From IMG/VR virus record IMGVR_UViG_3300049847_000077, positions 1-34,520 of that record: a stretch of DNA of 34,520 nucleotides; one strand, 5' to 3'. Both the position numbers and the translations under genes were made by a program. The DNA is from a virus. The notes under the pieces were generated by a model. That model ran no database searches and had not been told where the DNA came from. It saw only the letters and a program-made list of their open reading frames with translations. Below, piece by piece: positions 3,839 to 34,520 of the stretch (position 1 is the stretch's first letter; every line of letters begins with the position of its first letter).

Positions 3839-3978
3839 TGAGAACTACAATACTCGACCGCATAGCGTTCCTGACGCTGCTTGTTACTGTTGGTGTAGGT
3901 TCGGTGCTTATCGCTATCGGCGGTGTTATTGGCGTTGTGGTGATGGGCGTTTGTGATTTATTTGCGAAGGATAAATAA
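3838..3978 (+). CDS. Small membrane protein, 46 aa
   Basis: The ATG overlaps the previous stop by one base (TGATG) and the TAA (3976-3978) overlaps the next ATG by one base, so the frame is tightly packed. MRTTILDRIAFLTLL is followed by a glycine/valine-rich hydrophobic stretch covering most of residues 9-38 and a charged end LFAKDK. One transmembrane helix is expected, or a helical hairpin. Function unknown. Confidence 0.6.
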   Translation: MRTTILDRIAFLTLLVTVGVGSVLIAIGGVIGVVVMGVCDLFAKDK

Positions 3979-4235
3979 TGAAATGGTATGTTGAAGTTTT
4001 TATAGGTGAAATTTTGCAGGTAATCGCTTCTGCTGTTTTTCTCGCATTGGATAAATACGAGTTGGCCGCGCTGTTTTGGCTTATGTTTCTAGTAAGCTAT
4101 GCACACAGAAACATCAACGAAAAGCTAAAAGATTTGTCGCTGAAACATGGCATTCAATGCCGGAATGATGCTTCGATAGCACGTTTATCAGCATTGCAAG
4201 ACTCTAATGCAGCAGGCAATTCAACCGCTGAGTAA
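3978..4235 (+). CDS. Small membrane protein, 85 aa, last gene of the + block
   Basis: ATG 3978 follows AAGGATAAATA. Residues about 7-42 are hydrophobic (GEILQVIASAVFLALDKYEL and a second stretch AALFWLMFLVSYA), predicting one or two membrane helices, then a polar tail. The last 82 bases are antisense to the end of the o-spanin gene on the other strand. Both reading frames look genuine, so this is a tail-to-tail overlap of two operons. Function unknown. Confidence 0.6.
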   Translation: MKWYVEVFIGEILQVIASAVFLALDKYELAALFWLMFLVSYAHRNINEKLKDLSLKHGIQCRNDASIARLSALQDSNAAGNSTAE

Positions 4236-13011: not shown

Positions 13012-14570
13012 TAAATTACCCCTCCCTGCTCGATCAGATAATCAGTGGATGCCCATTGTATGCGGATGTTTTTACTTGACCCTAGAATGTGTGCTGAAAA
13101 GCAGTAACCAAGGCCGTATGATGTTTGCCAGTCGCGTTTAAGACTTAAACCTCCGCCCCAGAAAGCCGCGTCCCATGATGATGATGACCATGTTGCTGGC
13201 GGTGGATATGCTGGTGAAAAACTAGGCGTGCCAGTCGGAGATGAAACATCGAAGTCGGTATTGATGCCAAAAAGGAACGAAGGCACGCCATCGGTAGAAA
13301 TAATTGGGCGAACCATTTTTACCTGCTTAAGCTGCCCTCTGTTTCCAAAATAGCTAAACGACTGTTGAGCCTCAAAATTGATATTGTTACCATTGTCTGC
13401 GTAGGTATCCCACGCCTTGCATACTACGCCATCTGATCCAAAGTAAAGCGCATCACCGGATATTGTCCAACAGGCTGCATTCCATCCCGTGAATCTTGAC
13501 CATGCGCCTGAGATGGTATTCATCACAAGCTGATAAGATTGAGTCGATGAAATTGGCACGTTGATGATCAACATGTTCATCTGTGGATGTAGGATTGTTT
13601 CCCATCCGAACAGCGAACTATAAAGCCCTGAATACTCGCTTAATACGTGCTGAATCTTGTCGGTAATCATGTCGGCATTGTTGATGCTTGATGACATAAG
13701 CGACTTAGACAGAGGCGCTAAACCGTCCTGGCAAAGAATCGTAAGCTCACCACCCATTTTCATCATACAGCGGCGACCAATTGGCGAGTTAAAATCAAAC
13801 ACTCCAATCAGTGCCCATGTTGATGATGAAGCTGGATCTGTACCTTTGTATATCGCCACCTGCCCCTCGGATGACATAAATACAGCGTAATCATCCATAC
13901 CATAACCAGCATCAAGCGACCATGTGCCCATAGCCATTAAATAACCGCCATAGGTGAACAGGCTACCAAAATCAAGAGAAGCAGCCGCACCACCAACTGA
14001 TAGCGTTGGTAAATACCAAATTTTAGTGCTGTTTTTCTCGATAAACCATAAGCGGTTTTTGAAGGCATTTACGCTGATCAGGCTGGTCGTTGTTACTCCA
14101 GTAATAGCTGGAACTGATACGCCATCGATCGCAGTCCATGTTGTGCCATTAAATAGCTGCGGTTTATCTGAACCGTTCACCATGTAAAGGAAATTGCCGC
14201 CAGCCGTGCCAAAATTGCAGTGTTGATGCTTGCTCGATGTCTGCCCGGTTACTACAGCAGCACCAACAGCACCCGCTACGGTTACATCGTAAATATTTGA
14301 TCCAGCTGATGCGAATAGTTTAATGCCACCGCCTGGGGGTGAATAACTAGCTAGAGTGCTCACCGTTCCAGTTATACCTGTAGCCCAGTTGCTATATCCA
14401 TTGCGCACAATTACATCAAACGGAGTGCAGAAGAAATTATCCAGCTTCACCGCATCATCTGGCTTCATATCCGCGATTGGGTCGCGTGCGTTCCATCCAC
14501 CTACAGGAGCCGGAACTGATAGCGTTTGCGATGTTTGGCGGCGACTTAATCGCGTTTGAGGTGATCTCAT
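13011..14570 (-). CDS. Tail/DNA-stabilisation protein, P22 gp10-like, beta-propeller type
   Basis: 519 residues, rich in beta strands and aromatic residues with regular repeats such as NGSDKPQLFNGTTWTAIDGV and FKNRLWFIEKNSTKIWYLP, which suggest propeller blades. The opening APVGGWNARDPIADMKPDDA is typical of phage proteins that close the portal and form the tail hub (packaged-DNA stabilisation, gp10-like). Starts in an ATGA overlap with the adaptor-like gene upstream. The assignment rests on this N-terminal phrase, size and position; no full-length match was run. Confidence 0.68.
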   Translation of the reverse strand: MRSPQTRLSRRQTSQTLSVPAPVGGWNARDPIADMKPDDAVKLDNFFCTPFDVIVRNGYSNWATGITGTVSTLASYSPPGGGIKLFASAGSNIYDVTVAGAVGAAVVTGQTSSKHQHCNFGTAGGNFLYMVNGSDKPQLFNGTTWTAIDGVSVPAITGVTTTSLISVNAFKNRLWFIEKNSTKIWYLPTLSVGGAAASLDFGSLFTYGGYLMAMGTWSLDAGYGMDDYAVFMSSEGQVAIYKGTDPASSSTWALIGVFDFNSPIGRRCMMKMGGELTILCQDGLAPLSKSLMSSSINNADMITDKIQHVLSEYSGLYSSLFGWETILHPQMNMLIINVPISSTQSYQLVMNTISGAWSRFTGWNAACWTISGDALYFGSDGVVCKAWDTYADNGNNINFEAQQSFSYFGNRGQLKQVKMVRPIISTDGVPSFLFGINTDFDVSSPTGTPSFSPAYPPPATWSSSSWDAAFWGGGLSLKRDWQTSYGLGYCFSAHILGSSKNIRIQWASTDYLIEQGGVI

Positions 14571-26527: not shown

Positions 26528-26682
26528 CTATAACTCCTGTACGTAATTACATCACGAATAGTCGATGCACCTACCCCGTATTTTTTAGCCAGTGACTCGT
26601 AACCTCTGCCTCTGATGTAAGCCAAATGCGCGGATCTAATCTCACGCACTTGGCTATCAGTCAGCGATCTACGGCGGGTCAT
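26515..26682 (-). CDS. Small helix-turn-helix protein, 55 aa
   Basis: The ATG (26682-26680) shares its first base with the stop of the helicase-methyltransferase gene (TAATG). MTRRRSLTDSQVREIRSAHL leads to YESLAKKYGVGASTIRDVI, a clear helix-turn-helix of the resolvase/transposase-tail type, ending TYRSYRWVN. Such 50-60-residue proteins occur in many phages and probably bind DNA; no partner enzyme domain is fused. It overlaps the following gene by 13 bases. Confidence 0.72.
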   Translation of the reverse strand: MTRRRSLTDSQVREIRSAHLAYIRGRGYESLAKKYGVGASTIRDVITYRSYRWVN

Positions 26683-28877
26683 TATGAGAATAAATCCATA
26701 GTGCCAATCTTTGCAGATTCGATGTTTTTAATTGCCTGCTCGTAATAGCTTGGTTTTAGCTCGCTCCCGATGAATCTTCGGCCCATTTTGATAGCTGTGT
26801 AACCTTCACTACCAACACCAGTAAAAGGGCTGAATACTAAATCATCTGGCGCGCTCCAAAGGTTCATCGCGCGTTCGATAACATCTAACTGTAAAGGGCA
26901 GATATGCTTTACATCATCATCTTCGCGTGCTTCTTTAAAATTCAGAGTGCGGCTTTGGTTGATGTCAAACCATACCGGGCTTGCGTATTGCTGCCACAAA
27001 TCAACTGGGAACTCATCTGGTGTGTGGCTGATTGGTTTTGTGTTGTCTCCTGGTTTACGCATAATCACAAGGTAGTCAGCTAAACCTTGGCGACTCATGC
27101 TTGAATCTTTCTTGATCGTCTTGTGTAATAGTCCGAGTGCCTTTGTGCGCTGCATGGCTGTCACTGGATCTTTCCATATACATACCTCTGAATGATAGAT
27201 CCAGCCTTTCTCAACAAACAAGCGGATCAGTTCGCCTCGGAAGTCGCGGATACCAATAAAACCATCATTTACTTTAGACGTTGGCAAATTCATGCAATGC
27301 ACGGCCATTAGTCGCCCCGGCATAGTGATGCGGTATAGCTCATCAACTAAGTAACCAAAGTGCTGATAAAACTCGCCATGCCCTTTGCTGTTGCCCATGT
27401 CTCGGTCGCTGTTTGAATAGGTGAATAGCGATGCAAAAGGAGGGCTGTAAATCGTAAACCCGATTGAGTCTGATTCAATCTCACGCGCCAAATCAATACA
27501 ATCTGCATTATGGATTGTGAAGCCGTCACCTTCGTACACTTGGCGCACATACTCAGTCTTTTCTTCTGACAATCCAAAAATTTCCTTTTTCATTGACTCG
27601 CTCATGTATTTCACCATTTCTTCGCCCATTGTTTTGTTTTGCGATTCTTTGCGCTTGATGTTCTCAACCACTGCACCCTCTGACTCAGCGCTGATAACGT
27701 GAACATGCACTTGTTTTGTCTGTCCGAACCGATAAAACCGGCGGATGGCTTGGTAATACTGCTCCCATGAGTCAGAAATCCCAACGAATGCAGTATGGTT
27801 GCAGTGCTGCCAATTCATACCGAACCCTGCTATTGACGGCTTGGTGATAAGTACTCGCAGTTCACCATTCGTAAACGCGGCGATCTTTTGTTCTTTCTGG
27901 TCGATTGAATCAGATCCTTGAACGTCTGCGCTTCCTGGGATTGATTTGCATAGCTTTTCGCTTTCTTCATTGCGATGGCACCAGATAACCCACTGCTTGT
28001 CACTGGCGTTCACAATTTCTGCACACTTAGCCACTCGATCATCAATTGACTCTTTGCGTGCTTGGTTGCGCTCTAATAAACCTGTAGCGATGTCGGCGAA
28101 TAGGCCAATCGTTGATTTAGACTCAACCACATGATCGTGCATGATTAAATCTGGTAATTCATAACGCGAACCATCAAAGCCCAAGTCTGCTGGACTGCGA
28201 ATAACAACAGACCAAGTTGATAGCCATTCCCAAAACTTTGCTTTGCCGTGGCCTTTTAAAATCCAAGTCCCGGTATCTCCTGCATCATTAATGAAATACA
28301 TGGCAAGCATCTCAGCCATCGTCATCAATCCAAGCAATTCAGCCTGGTTCCCAAGTTCCATGAAGTCGTTAGGGCTTGGCGTTGCGGTGCATGACAGGCG
28401 GTAAGGCACGTTTTTACACGCATCAATAATTGCGTTGCGCGTCTTGCCGTCTCGGTTTTTAATAATTGACGATTCATCCAGCACAATTCCGTGGAATTCG
28501 TCAAAATCAAACCGATCTAGCATTTCGTAATTGGTGATGGTTATTCCTGGAACTACTCCATATTGATCGCGGCAATAGTTGATTGTGATTCCGAACTTCG
28601 CTCCTTCATTTACGGTTTGATGTGCAACACATAATGGAGCCAGAATCAGCACGTTTCCGCCTGTTTCTTTCACAACCTCATCCGCCCAACTTGTCTGCAT
28701 CAATGTCTTACCTAAACCAGTATCGGCAAAAATAGCAGCACGGCCACGTTTAACCGCCCACTTCACAATGGCGCGTTGAAAATCAAACAGGTTTTTATTC
28801 AAACTATCCGCATCAACATCATGACCAGATATGATTGGATTAACCTTCTTTAACTCTAAAAACTCGTTGTAATCCAT
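26682..28877 (-). CDS. SNF2-type helicase fused to DNA methyltransferase
   Basis: 731 residues. Residues about 1-430 are an SF2/SNF2 motor: Walker A ADTGLGKT at 51-58, DESS box (LDESSIIKN) at 133-141, TATPS motif III at 164-168, and motif VI QAIRRFYRFGQ at 376-386. From about 445 an amino-methyltransferase follows: SPPF (motif IV) at 478-481 and SPFTGVGSEGYTAI (motif I, FxGxG) at 683-696, in the order IV ... I of beta-class enzymes. SPPF suggests N4-cytosine or N6-adenine methylation. No nuclease motif is visible. ATG 28877 lies behind an attenuator-like element. The fusion could modify phage DNA while translocating; anti-restriction is an inference. Confidence 0.85.
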   Translation of the reverse strand: MDYNEFLELKKVNPIISGHDVDADSLNKNLFDFQRAIVKWAVKRGRAAIFADTGLGKTLMQTSWADEVVKETGGNVLILAPLCVAHQTVNEGAKFGITINYCRDQYGVVPGITITNYEMLDRFDFDEFHGIVLDESSIIKNRDGKTRNAIIDACKNVPYRLSCTATPSPNDFMELGNQAELLGLMTMAEMLAMYFINDAGDTGTWILKGHGKAKFWEWLSTWSVVIRSPADLGFDGSRYELPDLIMHDHVVESKSTIGLFADIATGLLERNQARKESIDDRVAKCAEIVNASDKQWVIWCHRNEESEKLCKSIPGSADVQGSDSIDQKEQKIAAFTNGELRVLITKPSIAGFGMNWQHCNHTAFVGISDSWEQYYQAIRRFYRFGQTKQVHVHVISAESEGAVVENIKRKESQNKTMGEEMVKYMSESMKKEIFGLSEEKTEYVRQVYEGDGFTIHNADCIDLAREIESDSIGFTIYSPPFASLFTYSNSDRDMGNSKGHGEFYQHFGYLVDELYRITMPGRLMAVHCMNLPTSKVNDGFIGIRDFRGELIRLFVEKGWIYHSEVCIWKDPVTAMQRTKALGLLHKTIKKDSSMSRQGLADYLVIMRKPGDNTKPISHTPDEFPVDLWQQYASPVWFDINQSRTLNFKEAREDDDVKHICPLQLDVIERAMNLWSAPDDLVFSPFTGVGSEGYTAIKMGRRFIGSELKPSYYEQAIKNIESAKIGTMDLFS

Positions 28878-28890
28878 TTTCTCAATCCAA

Positions 28891-28994
28891 TAAAAAAGGG
28901 TTTGCGCTGTTCTCTCATCTTTCGATGTTGGCAGACCGGAACGAGTACCGGCAGAGGACAGCGCAAACCCTACTCGTTTTTAAATGTCTGCCAA
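28891..28994 (-). ncRNA. Attenuator-like or pseudoknot leader element B
   Basis: On the - strand in order: TTGGCAGAC (28994-28986) and AACGAGT (28978-28972); stem arm AGGGTTTGCGCTGT (28971-28958); loop holding ACTCGTT (28946-28940) and GTCTGCCAA (28936-28928), exact complements of the two upstream segments, plus a hairpin CATC-GAAA-GATG with a GNRA loop (28926-28915); arm ACAGCGCAAACCCT (28910-28897) pairing perfectly over 14 bp; then further T residues to 28892 (TTTTTTATT including the last arm base). The stem plus T run resembles an intrinsic terminator with a 47-base loop; the upstream segment would form a competing 16-bp pairing or a pseudoknot. It lies 15 bases before the helicase-methyltransferase start. 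Confidence 0.55.
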
Positions 28995-29015
28995 GACAAT
29001 CCGAACTATAAACAT

Positions 29016-29219
29016 CTATTTGCTAATGTGCAAGTATTCCTGCCGTTTTTTTACAGTTTCATTCACTGCTTGCTCAAACGTTGAACAGTCGCGCTCTACT
29101 ATCCCTTGCCATTTCTCGTATCTGAATTTACTTAGGCTACACGGTGCCCATCCAGCACGGCGCATGTCTGGACTTGATCCGCGTAGATTCCAGTGTTCGC
29201 ACTCCAAACATTTAGCCAA
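29016..29219 (-). CDS. Small Cys-rich (zinc-binding) phage protein, TTG start
   Basis: 67 residues. The start is TTG 29219, with GGGAG nine bases upstream; no ATG fits and the opening (L/M)AKCLECEHWNLRGS is the usual start of this small phage family. Cysteines at 4 and 7 plus two later ones (WAPCSLSKF, RDCSTFE) form a likely C4 zinc site. It starts inside the end of the YbcO-like gene and is followed by leader element B. Function unknown. Confidence 0.68.
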   Translation of the reverse strand: MAKCLECEHWNLRGSSPDMRRAGWAPCSLSKFRYEKWQGIVERDCSTFEQAVNETVKKRQEYLHISK

Positions 29220-29514
29220 TTTTAATCACTCCCATCTCGATCAGTTTTCGCCAGGTCCGCACCATTGCGCGACGCATATACCATTGTTTGCTTAGGCTGT
29301 AATGCTCGTCATAAACGCGATTGTCTACCACATTGTGGCATGAACTACAGGCAAACGCCGCGCTAATATCATCAGCCTTCTGCCCCATGCCGTGCGATTC
29401 ATCCGGCAGGTGCGCCAGTACGGTTGTAGCAGGATCGTAGTTGCAAACGTAGGCTATGTTGAATGTGCAGTCTTGGCCGCGTGCTGCTTCACGTATTTTT
29501 TTTGATTTGATCAT
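29212..29514 (-). CDS. YbcO-like (DUF1364) putative nuclease
   Basis: 100 residues with the DUF1364 pattern: KIREAARGQDCTFNIAYVCN, VLAHLPDESHGMGQKADDIS, then AFACSSCHNVVDNRV. The metal ligands of this HNH-like fold would be the paired cysteines (C16, C24; CSSC near 76-79), with His in the AHL segment. E. coli YbcO is a structurally characterised member from a prophage recombination module. Starts in an ATGA overlap with the gene upstream. Confidence 0.82.
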   Translation of the reverse strand: MIKSKKIREAARGQDCTFNIAYVCNYDPATTVLAHLPDESHGMGQKADDISAAFACSSCHNVVDNRVYDEHYSLSKQWYMRRAMVRTWRKLIEMGVIKIG

Positions 29515-29696
29515 TTCTTTACCTGCTCAAAATGGATTTCATGATATATGCAATTCAGCGCTGCCCTTACTGGGATTGTGCATTGGTTCGTATTATTAAA
29601 AGAACAATCTATGCAATGTAAGCTACTTGGCAAACCTTTATCACTAACAACCTTTAACCTTCCAAGCTCTGGCGCTTCTTTGAATGTGATTATCAT
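29511..29696 (-). CDS. Small Cys-rich phage protein, 61 aa
   Basis: AAGGAGACAAG before ATG 29696. The 61 residues start MIITFKEAPELGRLKVVSDK and contain HCIDCSFNNTNQCTIPVRAA, then LNCIYHEIHFEQVKK. The four cysteines (C-x2-C, C, C) suggest a zinc finger. Similar short proteins precede YbcO or NinX genes in other phages. Function unknown. Confidence 0.65.
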   Translation of the reverse strand: MIITFKEAPELGRLKVVSDKGLPSSLHCIDCSFNNTNQCTIPVRAALNCIYHEIHFEQVKK

Positions 29697-29779
29697 CTTG
29701 TCTCCTTAAACACATATCCAAACAAAAACACAACAACCCCAACAACCATTCCGCATATAAAAATAGCCAATTCATACAT
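29693..29779 (-). CDS. Micro-protein with one membrane helix, 28 aa
   Basis: Open frame of 28 codons filling the gap between two genes, ATG 29779 and stop overlapping the next ATG. Sequence MYELAIFICGMVVGVVVFLF followed by GYVFKETR: a single hydrophobic helix with a charged C-terminus. The ribosome site is weak (GGTTAATT), so coupling to the upstream stop is needed. Its exact fit into the gap supports it. Confidence 0.45.
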   Translation of the reverse strand: MYELAIFICGMVVGVVVFLFGYVFKETR

Positions 29780-29781
29780 AA

Positions 29782-30090
29782 TTAACCTATCGCTTTCTTG
29801 ATTGCGGCGCGTGCTTCTGCCAATCCTTTGACTTTCTCTGATGGAGTCGGCCCCAATTTATCAACCATTGTTTGCAGCGCTTCTAGTAGGTCTGGCGCTG
29901 CTGATATAAGTTGTGCGTTTGCCTCGTTTTCTTCGTCAAACTCAACGCACCATCTAGGCATATTGCAGATTTCTTGATATACGCAATCTTCGTCAGGCTC
30001 TTCGGTATGAATTTCTGACGTATAGACCATTTTTTTACCGCCATAACTTGGGCCAGCCTGTATCCACGGCCCTGCTGTATATTTACTCAT
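29782..30090 (-). CDS. Phage accessory protein (TAGPW ... AAPDLLEAL type), 102 aa
   Basis: ATG 30090 is chosen because GGGGA lies just upstream; ATG 30102 overlaps the upstream stop region without a ribosome site. MSKYTAGPWIQAGPSYGGKK and ENEANAQLISAAPDLLEALQ are the two hallmarks of a very common phage protein family of unknown function. The C-terminus is helical and basic (EARAAIKKAIG). The middle has an acidic insert EEPDEDCVYQEICNMP with cysteines. Confidence 0.75.
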   Translation of the reverse strand: MSKYTAGPWIQAGPSYGGKKMVYTSEIHTEEPDEDCVYQEICNMPRWCVEFDEENEANAQLISAAPDLLEALQTMVDKLGPTPSEKVKGLAEARAAIKKAIG

Positions 30091-30091
30091 C

Positions 30092-30583
30092 TCATTCCCC
30101 ATTCTGCGCTATCCACGCGCGGTAAAGTTGCATTAGTTCTGCAAACCTTCTTGCGGCATCATCATTTGTATCTAACTCTTTCCTGCTTTCAATAAAACAT
30201 GTTTGTAAAATAACTTGTTTTGCTTCATTTTCTGGATCGCTTTTAAGATCTCCATCTGTTCGTGTAACTACGTAATACTCATCAACAAATCTCTGAAAGT
30301 CTTTGTTTTTGCATACCCCAATGGCCGATCTACATAAAGGCCCATTCATGTAAAATGGATAGCTTTGTTTCTGATCTTTTGTTATCGCTTGTTCATCCTC
30401 AACATCTACGGTTTTAATAACCATCGCCAGAATCTGCCCTGCTTGTTTCCCTTTGCGCTCTGTTAGTAGCTTAAAATTGGCTAAATCATCGCCGTCTGGT
30501 AGCCATAGTGTGATTGTTGCGCCACCGCTGCTTGTGTCTGACCATCGTTGTAGCTGTACTTCGCCTGAATAAATAGTTTTCAT
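30092..30583 (-). CDS. Phage replication-module protein of unknown function, 163 aa
   Basis: Starts in an ATGA overlap with the DnaB-like gene. MKTIYSGEVQLQRWSDTSSG and GGATITLWLPDGDDLANFKL, then LLTERKGKQAGQILAMVIKT suggest a beta barrel or strand-rich N-terminal half. The second half (YVVTRTDGDLKSDPENEAKQ and DAARRFAELMQLYRAWI) is helical. It is placed between the helicase and small accessory genes; a role in replication is plausible but not shown by any motif. Confidence 0.62.
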   Translation of the reverse strand: MKTIYSGEVQLQRWSDTSSGGATITLWLPDGDDLANFKLLTERKGKQAGQILAMVIKTVDVEDEQAITKDQKQSYPFYMNGPLCRSAIGVCKNKDFQRFVDEYYVVTRTDGDLKSDPENEAKQVILQTCFIESRKELDTNDDAARRFAELMQLYRAWIAQNGE

Positions 30584-31914
30584 GATAATTTCTTCCTCGC
30601 TGGCTTTGTTTCACTTCCAGACATTGGCCGGTCATCTGGTATCGGCGCATCGATGAACTTGGCGTATTCACCAAGCCACCCGCATTGGATCGTCTCACGT
30701 GGCCCCATGCGGTTTTTAGCAATGATGATTTCTGTCTCTGTCTGGTTTAATCGGTCGTCGTAATAGCCTGGGCGGTGAATCAACAAAACCATGTCGGCAT
30801 CTTCTTCAACGCTCCCACTGTCTTTCAGGTCGTGAAGTTGTGGCCGTCTACCCTCTTGCGCTGTATTTCGATTCAGTTGGTGCAATAACACGATAGGTAT
30901 TTGCAGCTCTTTTGCCAGCGACTTAAGCGCCTTTGTGATGTCTCCATACCCTTCAGTCCTGCGCTCCTTGTTGTGCTTGATGTGTGATAGCTGGTCAATC
31001 ACTAACAGCCTTAACCCGTGCCTTGCTTTGTGCTGCTTTGCTTTTGCGCGGATTTGCTGAACCGTAACGCTGCTTTGATCGTCGATATGGATCTTAGATT
31101 GATATAACTTGCCTAAACCTAAATTCATCCGGTCATATTCGAGTTCATACATTGGCTTGCCGTGTACTAAGTTCATCAATGGCACGCAAGCAATATTTGA
31201 TAAAATACGCAGCCCTATTTGCTCTTCGCTCATCTCAAGGCTGTTGATTAAAACTGGTATGCCATCGCGTTCGTTAGCAGTGCCCATCTGAATAGCAAAA
31301 CTTGTTTTACCCATCGAACTGCGGCCAGCAACAATAATTAGATCACCTGGCTGCATTCCTTGGGTCGCTCGGTCTACTGGTTCAATTCCAGTAGATAGCC
31401 CTGATATTCTATCGTCACCCGTTTTCATCTTCTCCATCATCACTTCAATGGCGTCAACCATAACGTCTTTTATGTGTCTAGCCTCTCGGTCTACCGCGTG
31501 AGATGAAAGGTTTAAAAGTATGTTTTGGCATTTGTCTAGCTTTTCCTCAACAGAAAGCCCGTCATCGGTTTTTGATAGCTCACCAATGGCAACACTCACG
31601 GCTTTGATGTTGCGCAGCGTAGCGGCTGTTTTTATGGCCTTGGCGTGGCTTTTAACCGTGGCCTTTGACAGTGGCGCAACCATTGCCCAGTTAACAACCT
31701 CTGACAATGGTATTGAAAGCGTGTTGTAAATTAGAAGCGCATCAGCGTGGCGACCATCTTCAAGCGTTTTGCAAATGAAAGACCAAACCGACTTGTTTTC
31801 TGCATACCAGAAGTCATCAGCGCTTAAGCCTTCAACGTCGTCTACTGAAAGTTTGTGGTTGTTTAGAAATGCGCCGATAACCGATATTTCTAGTTTTAAC
31901 TGTTTTTCATCCAT
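30580..31914 (-). CDS. dnaB: Replicative DNA helicase, DnaB-like
   Basis: 444 residues. N-terminal helical domain (ISVIGAFLNNHKLSVDDVEG), then the RecA-like motor: Walker A AGRSSMGKT at 196-204, NSLEMS near 224-229, Walker B LLVID at 303-307, LHQLNR at 344-349, SGSVEEDADMVLLIHRPGYY at 366-385 and KNRMGP at 400-405, which holds the usual arginine-finger region. It unwinds DNA ahead of the phage fork, loaded by the product of the gene just upstream. That gene overlaps its start by eight bases. Confidence 0.9.
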   Translation of the reverse strand: MDEKQLKLEISVIGAFLNNHKLSVDDVEGLSADDFWYAENKSVWSFICKTLEDGRHADALLIYNTLSIPLSEVVNWAMVAPLSKATVKSHAKAIKTAATLRNIKAVSVAIGELSKTDDGLSVEEKLDKCQNILLNLSSHAVDREARHIKDVMVDAIEVMMEKMKTGDDRISGLSTGIEPVDRATQGMQPGDLIIVAGRSSMGKTSFAIQMGTANERDGIPVLINSLEMSEEQIGLRILSNIACVPLMNLVHGKPMYELEYDRMNLGLGKLYQSKIHIDDQSSVTVQQIRAKAKQHKARHGLRLLVIDQLSHIKHNKERRTEGYGDITKALKSLAKELQIPIVLLHQLNRNTAQEGRRPQLHDLKDSGSVEEDADMVLLIHRPGYYDDRLNQTETEIIIAKNRMGPRETIQCGWLGEYAKFIDAPIPDDRPMSGSETKPARKKLS

Positions 31915-32635
31915 TTAGGATCTCCATTTGAATCATTATCCCTGCGTCTGTCAGATACCACTCTTTGGTTGTGTGGTTGATCCTGTAAACGTCTAACCAT
32001 CCTGGATTATCAATGTAGTTCCTAAACGTTTGTAGCCAGTCCCTTTGTTTCTTGCTTGCTGCTATTGCTCGTCGTTTAAAACTTAGCCATGCAATGACTA
32101 TGAACTCTTCTGGTATTCCTGCTGTTTTTGCTTTGGTGTATACGCTGTCATCCTCTGGTACTCCACCGCCTGAATCTATCCATTCTGTGATGGTTTGTTC
32201 TTGTTTTTTGGTTTTGACTTGCTTTGGCTTTTCATCTGTTTGCGCTATATGTTGTTTTGTATTCTTTGTAGTAGTCTCTGTTCTTATATACATTTCCCCA
32301 TTTTGAGGTGATGTACATTCCCCCAATTTGGGGTAATCGATACGGTAATAAAGCGTTCTAGTGAACTTGTCTTTACTTAGGTTTTCAGCAACTAAAAAAC
32401 CTTTGTCGCGTAGTGATTTCAATGTTCTTTCTACGGTATTAACACTGAAAAACGGAAATTGCTCCTGCCATTGATCTAGCGTGTTAAACACCCATACAAA
32501 ACCGTTTATCTCGTTCTTACTAACTGTTAGCCAGTAATGAACCTGTTGCAACACAATCGCCTCATTTACCCCTATAGCCACGGCCAGCGATGGCTGAAAC
32601 ATTAACGGGCTCTCGTTGATTAACATGCGGCTCAT
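31907..32635 (-). CDS. Replication initiator/helicase loader, O-like
   Basis: 242 residues. The N-terminal domain MFQPSLAVAIGVNEAIVLQQ, then VHYWLTVSKNEING, and NTVERTLKSLRDKGFLVAEN make a winged-helix DNA-binding unit typical of phage initiators. The C-terminal part (RDWLQTFRNYIDNPGWLDVY) is the helicase-binding part expected beside a DnaB gene. The linker contains YPKLGECTSPQNGEMY, encoded by iteron-like DNA repeats, as in lambda O where the origin lies inside the gene. The start overlaps the preceding gene (ATG inside its last codons). Confidence 0.78.
   Translation of the reverse strand: MSRMLINESPLMFQPSLAVAIGVNEAIVLQQVHYWLTVSKNEINGFVWVFNTLDQWQEQFPFFSVNTVERTLKSLRDKGFLVAENLSKDKFTRTLYYRIDYPKLGECTSPQNGEMYIRTETTTKNTKQHIAQTDEKPKQVKTKKQEQTITEWIDSGGGVPEDDSVYTKAKTAGIPEEFIVIAWLSFKRRAIAASKKQRDWLQTFRNYIDNPGWLDVYRINHTTKEWYLTDAGIMIQMEILNG
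32289..32337. repeat. Two iteron-like repeats inside the initiator gene, candidate replication origin
   Basis: Two 24-bp direct repeats (32289-32312 and 32314-32337) with 20 of 24 bases identical, at a 25-bp period. The second holds the perfect inverted repeat CCCCAATTTGGGG (32321-32333), the first an imperfect version. The period is not a multiple of three, so the copies are read in different protein frames and cannot be kept by protein selection alone. AT-rich DNA (about 32245-32290) lies beside them, as in lambda-type origins. Confidence 0.6.
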
Positions 32636-32859
32636 AATATTACCCCGCGTTTCAGCCAGCCTAGTTCAATAGCGTGCTCAACCTCACTTACAACAACATG
32701 CGTGCCTAGTGATGAGTAACGAGCTAATTCGTTATAAGTAGTTTCTTCACATTCACCATTAGCATTGGTAAGCGCACCAATTACTAACAAAATTAGCTTT
32801 GTATTTGATGGCAATCCACTTTCTAAAACCTTGGCTTCATATGTTCTGTTGTCGCTCAT
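32632..32859 (-). CDS. Small winged-helix/HTH candidate, 75 aa
   Basis: ATG 32859 is chosen for GGGAG eight bases upstream and for its ATGA overlap with the preceding gene. The sequence includes KLILLVIGALTNANGECEET, then ELARYSSLGTHVVVSEVEHA and IELGWLKRGVIL, which looks like a winged helix whose recognition helix is STHxVVSEVEHAIEL-like. It overlaps the start of the O-like gene by four bases. It could be a small regulator or accessory to the initiator. Confidence 0.6.
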   Translation of the reverse strand: MSDNRTYEAKVLESGLPSNTKLILLVIGALTNANGECEETTYNELARYSSLGTHVVVSEVEHAIELGWLKRGVIL

Positions 32860-32984
32860 ATACCGCACTCCCGTGCAATACGTTTGATAGCTGCTTCGTA
32901 TTGTTCTGGTGTTGAACCTGGATTTTTAGCGATCCATTCGTTTTTAAGTCTTTTGTACTCAAGATAAACTTTAAGTATTGCCAT
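32856..32984 (-). CDS. Small phage protein, 42 aa
   Basis: ATG 32984 is chosen for TTGGAG eight bases upstream; the open frame further up is only the leader element. Sequence AILKVYLEYKRLKNEWIAKN then PGSTPEQYEAAIKRIARECGI: helical throughout. First gene after leader element A and coupled to the winged-helix gene by ATGA. Function unknown. Confidence 0.6.
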   Translation of the reverse strand: MAILKVYLEYKRLKNEWIAKNPGSTPEQYEAAIKRIARECGI

Positions 32985-32999
32985 GTGAAAACTCCAAAT

Positions 33000-33104
33000 A
33001 AAAAAGCCACTTAGTTGATCGGAGGGATACCCGTTATGTGTACGCAAGAGTTGACACAAAACGAGACCGATCATCTAAGTGGCCTGTTTAGTCTCTTATG
33101 CGTA
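33000..33104 (-). ncRNA. Attenuator-like or pseudoknot leader element A
   Basis: On the - strand: upstream segment TACGCATAAGAG (33104-33093); stem arm GCCACTTAGATGATCGG (33083-33067); loop of 44 bases containing CTCTTGCGTA (33050-33041), which pairs with the upstream segment over 10 bp with a 2-base bulge; arm CCGATCAACTAAGTGGC (33022-33006) pairing at 16 of 17 positions; then TTTTTTATTTGGAG leading into ATG 32984. Shares with element B the order anti-segment, arm, complementary loop, arm, T run, ribosome site, although the sequences are unrelated. Confidence 0.55.
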
Positions 33105-33122
33105 AGTTGCCCATCCCGTCCC

Positions 33123-33136
33123 CACGGGTGATGCGA
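33123..33136 (-). other. Short GC hairpin in the leader of the replication genes
   Basis: CCCGT, loop GGGG, ACGGG on the - strand (33136-33123), upstream of leader element A. No T run follows. It may be part of the same structured leader. Confidence 0.35.
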
Positions 33137-33161
33137 GCAAGTTAAATATTAGCGTAAAAAG

Positions 33162-33779
33162 TTACAGAATTCCACCCCATTGTTCAGCCATTGCGTTTGC
33201 AATTCCTTGAAACGTGCGTGACCGTTCTTTCCATCGATCTTCACTGGGTGCTAGTTTGTTTTGTCCGCTGTCGGTTTGATTTCCCCATCGCGGTTTGCCA
33301 TCAACAAAACGCGGCTCAACAAATCCAGTTGATTTTAGTGTCAGCAAGTTTTTTAGCCATAAGCATGTTTTCTTGCTGGCATCTTCACCAAAGTTATACG
33401 GCTGAATAACTTGATTTGGCTTGCGAATCTGCGAGCTAATGCAACTAACAGGATTTTCAATTGCAATGCGGTGTATAGGCGCAGCCATCAATCTGCGGAC
33501 AAAATCTAGCGCTTCTTCTGTTAGCTCTGCGCGGGGTCGTCCATCAACCATCGCGCCGCGCGTATTCCAATGCAGCCCTGACACGCTAAGATACGTACAT
33601 GGCGGGTGCGCAATCATTAAATCCCACTGCTGATCCAGTAAATCGAAAACGTCACCCTGGTAGTGGTACGGGCTATCATCTTCACTTGGCAATAGATCAC
33701 ATGACAAAACATCATGACCACGCTGCATAAATGCGTTGCGAACTCTGCCACTGTATTCGCAAGCAACTAATACCCTCAT
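33162..33779 (-). CDS. Cytosine-C5 DNA methyltransferase-like protein
   Basis: 205 residues. MRVLVACEYSGRVRNAFMQR supplies a motif I-like SAM-binding loop, AHPPCTYLSVSG has the PC dipeptide of C5 motif IV at 60-61, and IAIENPVSC (105-113) resembles the ENV motif VI. The later SKKTCLWLKNLL and RTFQGIANAMAEQW are conserved in this small phage family. A full target-recognition domain is missing, so activity and specificity are uncertain. It starts in an ATGA overlap with the Cro-like gene, so it is made early. A role in protecting phage DNA from restriction is an inference. Confidence 0.75.
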   Translation of the reverse strand: MRVLVACEYSGRVRNAFMQRGHDVLSCDLLPSEDDSPYHYQGDVFDLLDQQWDLMIAHPPCTYLSVSGLHWNTRGAMVDGRPRAELTEEALDFVRRLMAAPIHRIAIENPVSCISSQIRKPNQVIQPYNFGEDASKKTCLWLKNLLTLKSTGFVEPRFVDGKPRWGNQTDSGQNKLAPSEDRWKERSRTFQGIANAMAEQWGGIL

Positions 33780-34124: not shown

Positions 34125-34520
34125 ATGAGTGAAGAAAACAAGAAGTACAAGTTAGTTGAATCTGACATTGCTGGGTTATTCCGCGTTGTTGCGCTTGTGT
34201 CGTTTGGAGTTGTTAGCGCTGGAGAACAAGGCGGGTATGTTGAGTCGGAAAGCAATTTATCTATCTCTGGCGATGCGTGGGTCTCTGGCGATGCGCAGGT
34301 CTATGGCAATGCGCGGGTCTATGGCAATGCGCGGGTCTATGGCAATGCGCGGGTCTATGGCAATGCGCAGGTCTATGGCAATGCGCAGGTCTATGGCAAT
34401 GCGCGTGTCTCTGGCGATGCGCGGGTCTATGGCAATGCGCAGGTCTATGGCAATGCGCAGGTCTATGGCAATGCGCAGGTCTATGGCAATGCGCGGGTCT
34501 ATGGCAATGCGCTGGTCTAT
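34125..34520 (+). CDS. Hexapeptide-repeat (VYGNAR) phage protein, 5' part, runs off the window end
   Basis: First gene of the + strand block, 132 codons to the window end with no stop. ATG 34125 is preceded by AAGGGG at the usual distance. Residues 1-45 form a non-repetitive head including [14 protein letters not shown]. From 34263 there are 14 six-residue units of the type VYGNAR or VSGDAR plus a partial one. This head plus (V-[YS]-G-[ND]-A-x)n layout is known from many phage and prophage proteins and predicts a left-handed parallel beta-helix related to bacterial transferase hexapeptide folds. Function is unknown. The gene continues at the window start (positions 2-427) if the ends are joined through their shared GGTCTAT. 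It is divergent from the Cro-like gene and reads from the promoter in the control region. Confidence 0.85.
34263..34520 (+). repeat. 18-bp coding tandem repeat, right part (14 units plus 6 bases)
   Basis: The same 18-bp unit as at the window start, 14 full units followed by GTCTAT. The first unit differs most (ISGDAW). The last bases GGTCTAT are identical to the first seven bases of the window, so the two arrays are one array cut by assembly. Confidence 0.95.

Follow-up and report, generated by a model that had tools for sequence, protein, structure and literature searches.

Phage early genes are mostly thought to be controlled by repressors and protein antiterminators, and a common RNA switch would add a layer to this control. 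Several described RNAs invite comparison. The c4 antisense RNA of phages P1 and P7 shares its coding strand with its target and has variable but matching loops. In the rep mRNA of IncI/IncB plasmids, a hairpin loop of the UUGGC type (UUGGCG) pairs with a distal GCCAA to form a pseudoknot that switches on the replication gene, while the put RNA of phage HK022 is an early-leader RNA that promotes readthrough, modifies the polymerase and lacks its own terminator. The leader of the pT181 repC gene lies between the promoter and the gene for the replication initiator, and adopts either a permissive fold or an intrinsic terminator, with the ribosome site at the terminator (PMC5435934). A pseudoknotted fold also competes with an overlapping terminator in the fluoride (crcB) and ZTP (pfl) riboswitches, and the c4 RNA is listed as a family (RF01695) in the same source (PMC2864571).

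Two Leader Elements among Phage Early Genes

The window analyzed here, 34,520 bases long, spans an entire IMG/VR virus record. An identical 18-bp tandem repeat occurs at both ends of the record (1-213 and 34264-34520), and the phage genome is therefore probably circular or permuted, and cut within an ORF of GNARVYG-type repeats. The early genes are on the minus strand, in the order CII-like protein, a 219-aa protein without a Pfam match, element B, a 42-aa ORF, an HTH_36-like protein, the replication protein, a DnaB-type helicase, small genes including YbcO, element A and a 731-aa helicase-methylase. A cluster of palindromic CCCCATTTTGAGG / CCCCCAATTTGGGG sequences within the replication gene (32287-32342) is a candidate origin of replication, comparable to that in lambda O.

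Elements A and B (Table 1) are the sole strong long-loop terminators in the window, and the T-runs of both lead into GGA(G) and an ATG. The terminator loop is 37 nt in A (about 47 nt when the inner CTCT/AGAG pairs are taken as unpaired) and 44 nt in B. Whole-element folds have z = -5.0 (A) and z = -5.3 (B), and none of 200 shuffles was equally stable in either case. A sequence-only reading had placed two long-loop terminators on this strand, each running into a ribosome site with its segments in the order a-b-a'-b', and both are real and lie where it located them. The anti-segments a and a' that it proposed exist and are richer than it claimed, with two nested long-range helices plus small hairpins.

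Table 1. Positions of the features of elements A and B in the window (b and b', 5' and 3' arms of the terminator; s1/s1' and s2/s2', long-range pairing partners).
Feature	Position	Strand	Description	Basis
Element A, whole	28881-29033	-
A promoter	29005..29033	-	-35 TTGCAC 29028-29033, 17 nt, -10 TATAGT 29005-29010
A hairpin 1	28985..28998	-	TGTC[TTGGCA]GACA; loop s1 = 28989-28994; expected location of the RNA 5' end	helix 1 covariation
A s2	28971..28978	-	AACGAGTA; partner is the hairpin-2 loop	partners match in 23 distinct members
A terminator 5' arm b	28953..28971	-	pairs with b' (18/19 pairs)
A hairpin 2	28935..28952	-	GCCGG[TACTCGTT]CCGGT; loop s2' = 28940-28947
A s1'	28928..28933	-	TGCCAA; partner is the hairpin-1 loop	100% paired, 37 sequences
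A hairpin 3	28916..28927	-	CATC-GAAA-GATG	covariation alignment
A terminator 3' arm b' and T-run	28889..28915	-	b' 28897-28915; T-run TTTTTTATT 28889-28897
A ribosome-site region	28881..28890	-	TTGGATTGAG, immediately 3' of T-run; ATG at 28877	sequence
Gene behind A	26682..28877	-	SNF2-type helicase + N6/N4 DNA methylase, 731 aa	Pfam
Element B, whole	32992-33151	-
B weak -10-like box	33146..33151	-	TAATAT, 16 nt before the hairpin-1 pairing segment	score 5.9, shuffled mean 4.9
B hairpin 1	33112..33133	-	CATC[ACCCGTGGGGACGG]GATG; s1 = ACCCGT 33124-33129	layout test
B s2	33093..33103	-	ACGCATAAGAG, complementary to CTCTTGCGT, 2-nt bulge	layout test
B terminator 5' arm b	33067..33085	-	pairs with b' (18/19 pairs; arm limits approximate)
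B hairpin 2	33037..33058	-	TGTGT[CAACTCTTGCGT]ACACA; s2' = 33042-33050	layout test
B s1'	33029..33034	-	ACGGGT, complementary to ACCCGT	layout test
B terminator 3' arm b' and T-run	32997..33022	-	b' 33004-33022; T-run TTTTTTATT 32997-33005
B ribosome site	32992..32998	-	TTTGGAG; ATG 32984 of the 42-aa ORF heading the replication gene group	sequence

A Leader RNA Family in Other Viruses

Searching with the window helicase gave 71 viral loci, one of which, L002, carries a clearly related leader before the same gene. A sequence pattern taken from the common TTGGCAG ... TCTGCCAACA segments and a second pattern recovered dozens of contigs with the same leader, and a covariance model (R1) built from 16 sequences matched 43 contigs including the window, with one strong copy in each. 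The independent route through relatives of the replication protein yielded 11 further contigs with strong R1 matches; a twelfth, L451, is identical to L248, which was already counted. Judged by the covariance models, family A comprises about 54 viral contigs (some near-identical to each other), one bacterial MAG and one GenBank phage record. Element A scores 87–89 bits against R1 and R2 (E about 1e-19), as part of the training set. The GenBank record (MW202520.1, L707) carries an unannotated element at 3869-3988 (47.4 bits), before a DUF1376-type gene. A search of 768 genomes (one order and one class) gave a single match, and L577 is a family-A element in a genome of the order searched around a Comamonadaceae MAG.

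The window has no match in Rfam 15 at the gathering score, nor any up to E 5 over 28850-33200, and 22 related loci have none except for a tRNA elsewhere in L583. Family A is an RNA family absent from Rfam 15. No relatives were obtained via the DnaB-type helicase, a BLASTn search of named phages with A and B yielded chance pieces only, the L111 and L163 elements matched nothing in phages, and B and the L111 element matched nothing in plasmids. A pattern scan of bacterial genome contigs returned chance matches only, none of them with a model match, and no convincing case was seen in eight named phages picked by terminase or helicase similarity.

The genes behind the family-A leaders are early and mostly replication genes. 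Their products are primosomal proteins of the DUF1376 type, replication proteins (O-like and others), an HNH nuclease, small proteins of unknown function and the helicase-methylase. The T-run, the ribosome site and an ATG come directly after the terminator, and there is a gene behind nearly every member. A family of small proteins (65–80 aa, ending ..YLTLDQF..WNxGV) is encoded behind many elements (L111, L202, L245, L247, L250), and the three of these tested had no PHROG match. In L572, two nearly identical inverted copies of the element (13200-13276, plus strand; 14415-14491, minus strand) lie near the contig end and flank two ORFs, one of them antirepressor-like, which may represent an inverted duplication or an assembly artefact.

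An alignment of 37 distinct sequences (A4) supports six helices, namely hairpins 1, 2 and 3, the terminator, and the two long-range pairings, PK1 (hairpin-1 loop with s1') and PK2 (s2 with the hairpin-2 loop). Paired cells make up 94.6% of the alignment, compared with 74.5% when shuffled, both sides have changed in 35 of 43 pairs (score 0.560 vs. 0.172), and the signal is lost when partners are slid by one column. Such two-sided changes were found in 16 of the 19 terminator pairs, 3 of the 6 in PK1 and all 4 in PK2. Covariation in PK1 and PK2 is not a fitting artefact, because both were absent from the nested model used for aligning. Among 23 distinct members, the match between s2 and the hairpin-2 loop scored 12.6, against 7.5 +/- 0.5 when partners were swapped, and the s2 partners vary freely yet always match (GGGTA/TACCC, CGAGTA/TACTCG, GGACA/TGTCC, AGGC/GCCT and others). 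TTGG/CCAA, the G before hairpin 2 and the TC after it are nearly invariant, and conserved unpaired residues are few. In 27 of 37 sequences the terminator stem retains a mismatch at its middle (A4 columns 42/122), which perhaps tunes stem strength.

Most of 31 leaders have a sigma70 -10 box whose end lies 10–11 nt before the hairpin-1 loop (10 nt in A), and the mean promoter score is 10.1, compared with 4.9 for shuffled sequence. Given this fixed spacing, the RNA should begin in the 5' strand of hairpin 1. No promoter was found on the antisense strand (best score 8.0 vs. 8.3 +/- 1.7 shuffled).

These results bear on several points of the sequence-only reading. It knew of no described phage RNA family with this layout, and that is borne out by Rfam 15. 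It had proposed a match to a known family, or pairing that is not conserved, as evidence against its view; for A there is no such match and the pairing is strongly conserved. It assigned both elements to one early operon, but A is not simply an inner part of an operon, having its own promoter locked to the RNA start.

Element B and the Wider Layout

The layout consists of the hairpin-1 loop pairing with s1', s2 pairing with the hairpin-2 loop, the terminator, the T-run and the ribosome site. Element A has a layout score of 43, matched by 0.05% of dinucleotide shuffles of flank and loop with the stem fixed. Element B scores 39–40, is outside RNA family A, has a weak promoter and has no homologues that we could find; no R1 match was seen up to E 5, and a match to R2 (16.1 bits, E 0.067) was not accepted. 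A and B have no significant sequence likeness, neither model recovers B, and B probably shares the layout of A, in support of the proposal of one design in different sequences. The regulator that A and B were suggested to share is unsupported, because they have no common recognition sequence and it is pairing, not sequence, that is kept within the family.

From its sequence, B is a probable member of the layout class, and its layout and position would be compatible with an attenuator. It may instead be an ordinary long-loop terminator in which the a/a' matches arose by chance, an account that we rate as the lesser but a substantial possibility. The R2 match would suit this, as it covers the stem only, as would a prefix fold that is not unusually stable (z = -1.05) and the presence of a few comparable scores in each 3.5 Mb of shuffled sequence. 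With the stem fixed, however, only 0.3% of shuffles score as well as B, and B sits before the replication gene group; relatives (L404, L405, L410, L413, L417, L425, L455 and L074) have the layout at this place, where strong terminators are otherwise uncommon.

A layout-only descriptor picked out at least five other contigs (L074, L205, L587, L631 and L694) that have the layout but are unrelated in sequence. A scan of 6.4 Mb gave 21 distinct layouts (family A included) at a score of 44 or more, against none in reversed sequence, and loci selected by the terminator-to-ribosome-site pattern alone gave 8 against 0 at a score of 38 or more; these counts favour the A-type shape because the descriptor was tuned on A-type elements. 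Rather than being peculiar to this phage, the layout is widespread, which differs from the sequence-only reading. An early generic test, limited to the longest a:a' helix, gave a suggestive result, and the duplex energy of the whole flank failed to tell real from control sequences, which the two-helix layout test could.

Further candidates were noted. The layout is present with unrelated sequence in two public phage records, Chlorobiaceae phage CV-1-33 (L698, 3888-3973; judged by eye), directly before its DUF1376 gene, and ctTUS972 (L704, 5242-5328). Upstream of a Bro-N type antirepressor-like gene in L583 there is a simpler variant, where the loop of hairpin GGAAG[GGTGAGAG]CTTCC matches ACTCTCACC within the loop of a short-armed terminator. 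Phage terminators before ribosome sites in L044 (3754-3819), L051 (8017-8082) and L070 (5112-5173), with 9–12 bp between the upstream flank and the terminator loop, are perhaps simpler relatives.

A Proposed Attenuation Mechanism

Segment s2 lies at the base of the 19-pair terminator stem and its partner, the hairpin-2 loop, at the top. Since 19 pairs span about 50 angstroms and the hairpin-2 link is far shorter, the s2 pairing is expected to be incompatible with the full terminator, and this geometry suggests that the terminator and the long-range pairings of A are mutually exclusive. Both the terminator and the s2:s2' pairing are conserved. The conserved partners s1/s1' and s2/s2' leave b unpaired, except for one shared base at its end. 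When A is folded as a prefix without b', nested s1:s1' and s2:s2' helices form with b looped out (-28.7 kcal/mol; z = -2.9), and when b' is included the terminator wins (-42 kcal/mol). L205 and L074 behave in the same way, with the antiterminator in the prefix and the terminator at full length, while the prefix folds of L111 and L623 lack the whole antiterminator, the program being unable to score pseudoknots.

We favour, and regard as reasonably probable, a transcription attenuator that is locked to its promoter, and in which a pseudoknotted antiterminator loops out the 5' arm of the terminator instead of pairing with it. Each element would make up the whole 5' leader of an early transcript of the phage. 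RNA polymerase would start within the 5' strand of hairpin 1, and as the RNA emerges, s1 (in the hairpin-1 loop) and s2 would pair with s1' and s2' (in the hairpin-2 loop), closing a pseudoknotted or nested antiterminator that leaves b in a loop. The prefix energy minima point to this folding order, with b' synthesized only after the antiterminator has closed. If the antiterminator stays intact, b and b' could not zip before the polymerase clears the T-run, and the downstream gene would be transcribed; if it is blocked or opened, the very stable b:b' stem would form and transcription would stop. The family-A leader probably switches phage replication genes on and off, in line with the RNA-level control of early genes that the sequence-only reading had envisaged.

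Alternative Triggers and Products

What sets the switch may be RNA. That the matching loops vary freely and that few unpaired residues are conserved both count against a ligand, and RNA-RNA control, perhaps exerted by the terminated leader itself, becomes an attractive possibility. One version of the attenuator names this trigger: the terminated leader of about 105 nt, which exposes s1, s2, s1' and s2', would pair in trans with new leaders and block their antiterminator, so that early replication genes are turned off as copies accumulate. Such feedback would resemble the copy control of plasmids or the c4 immunity of phages, except that a single strand within one leader would encode it. Partners that vary but always match are what is expected of specificity loops, there is no antisense promoter to supply another RNA, the downstream genes are replication initiators, and the UUGG-type loop agrees with the U-turn (YUNR) pattern seen in antisense control loops. 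Pairing in cis, however, accounts for the covariation on its own, and the nearly fixed TTGG/CCAA leaves little specificity at s1, so that we put this version forward tentatively, as possible but on balance unlikely. We are more doubtful still of its extension to a widespread class of phage leader RNAs, in which a topological pseudoknot antiterminator that traps the 5' arm would combine with feedback in trans to give plasmid-like copy control encoded on a single strand.

A similarly low probability is assigned to a switch in which a phage or host protein, or a small molecule, binds and stabilises the pseudoknotted fold. The nearly invariant positions of family A speak for it, but the same layout in the sequence-unrelated L074, L205, L587, L631 and L694 argues against a common pocket, conserved unpaired residues are few, and A and B are without a common recognition sequence. 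A plain terminator that yields a stable structured small RNA, with the RNA of about 105 nt as the product and downstream readthrough incidental, is improbable: a strong stem, its own promoter and a compact conserved fold would be suitable for such an RNA, but a ribosome site adjoining the T-run and a gene behind nearly every member would be needless for a free-standing one, and the paired partners would preclude the terminator. Repeats and a toxin gene are absent, which led us to reject a type III toxin-antitoxin RNA, and c4 and the known riboswitches were likewise rejected, as there is no Rfam match.

Returning to the favoured attenuator, an antiterminator that loops out the terminator arm rather than pairing with it would be an unusual way to block terminator formation, and freely varying loops that always match would give natural sets of orthogonal RNA parts.

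Comparison with Known Systems

No papers on phage pseudoknot attenuators were found in the open-access literature, which is weak evidence of novelty. The HK022 put RNA, compared here by description, is likewise a phage early-leader RNA, but the present elements contain a terminator. The fluoride and ZTP riboswitches differ in that a conserved ligand pocket is absent here, the loop sequences vary freely and there is no Rfam match. The c4 RNA resembles the present elements in being a phage RNA encoded on the same strand with variable, matching loops; its covariance model (RF01695) has no match in the window or related loci, and here a single leader of about 105 nt, with an intrinsic terminator at its end, holds all partners. 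The UUGGC-type hairpin loop and its distal GCCAA partner are also like those of the IncI/IncB rep mRNA, as judged by description, but control there is translational and under an antisense RNA, whereas here the pairing overlaps a terminator. The pT181 attenuator shares a leader before a replication gene, a choice between two folds and a ribosome site at the terminator. It differs in that its antiterminator pairs with the 5' arm of the terminator, which is looped out here, and in that its signal is an antisense RNA from the opposite strand, where no promoter is seen in the present leaders.
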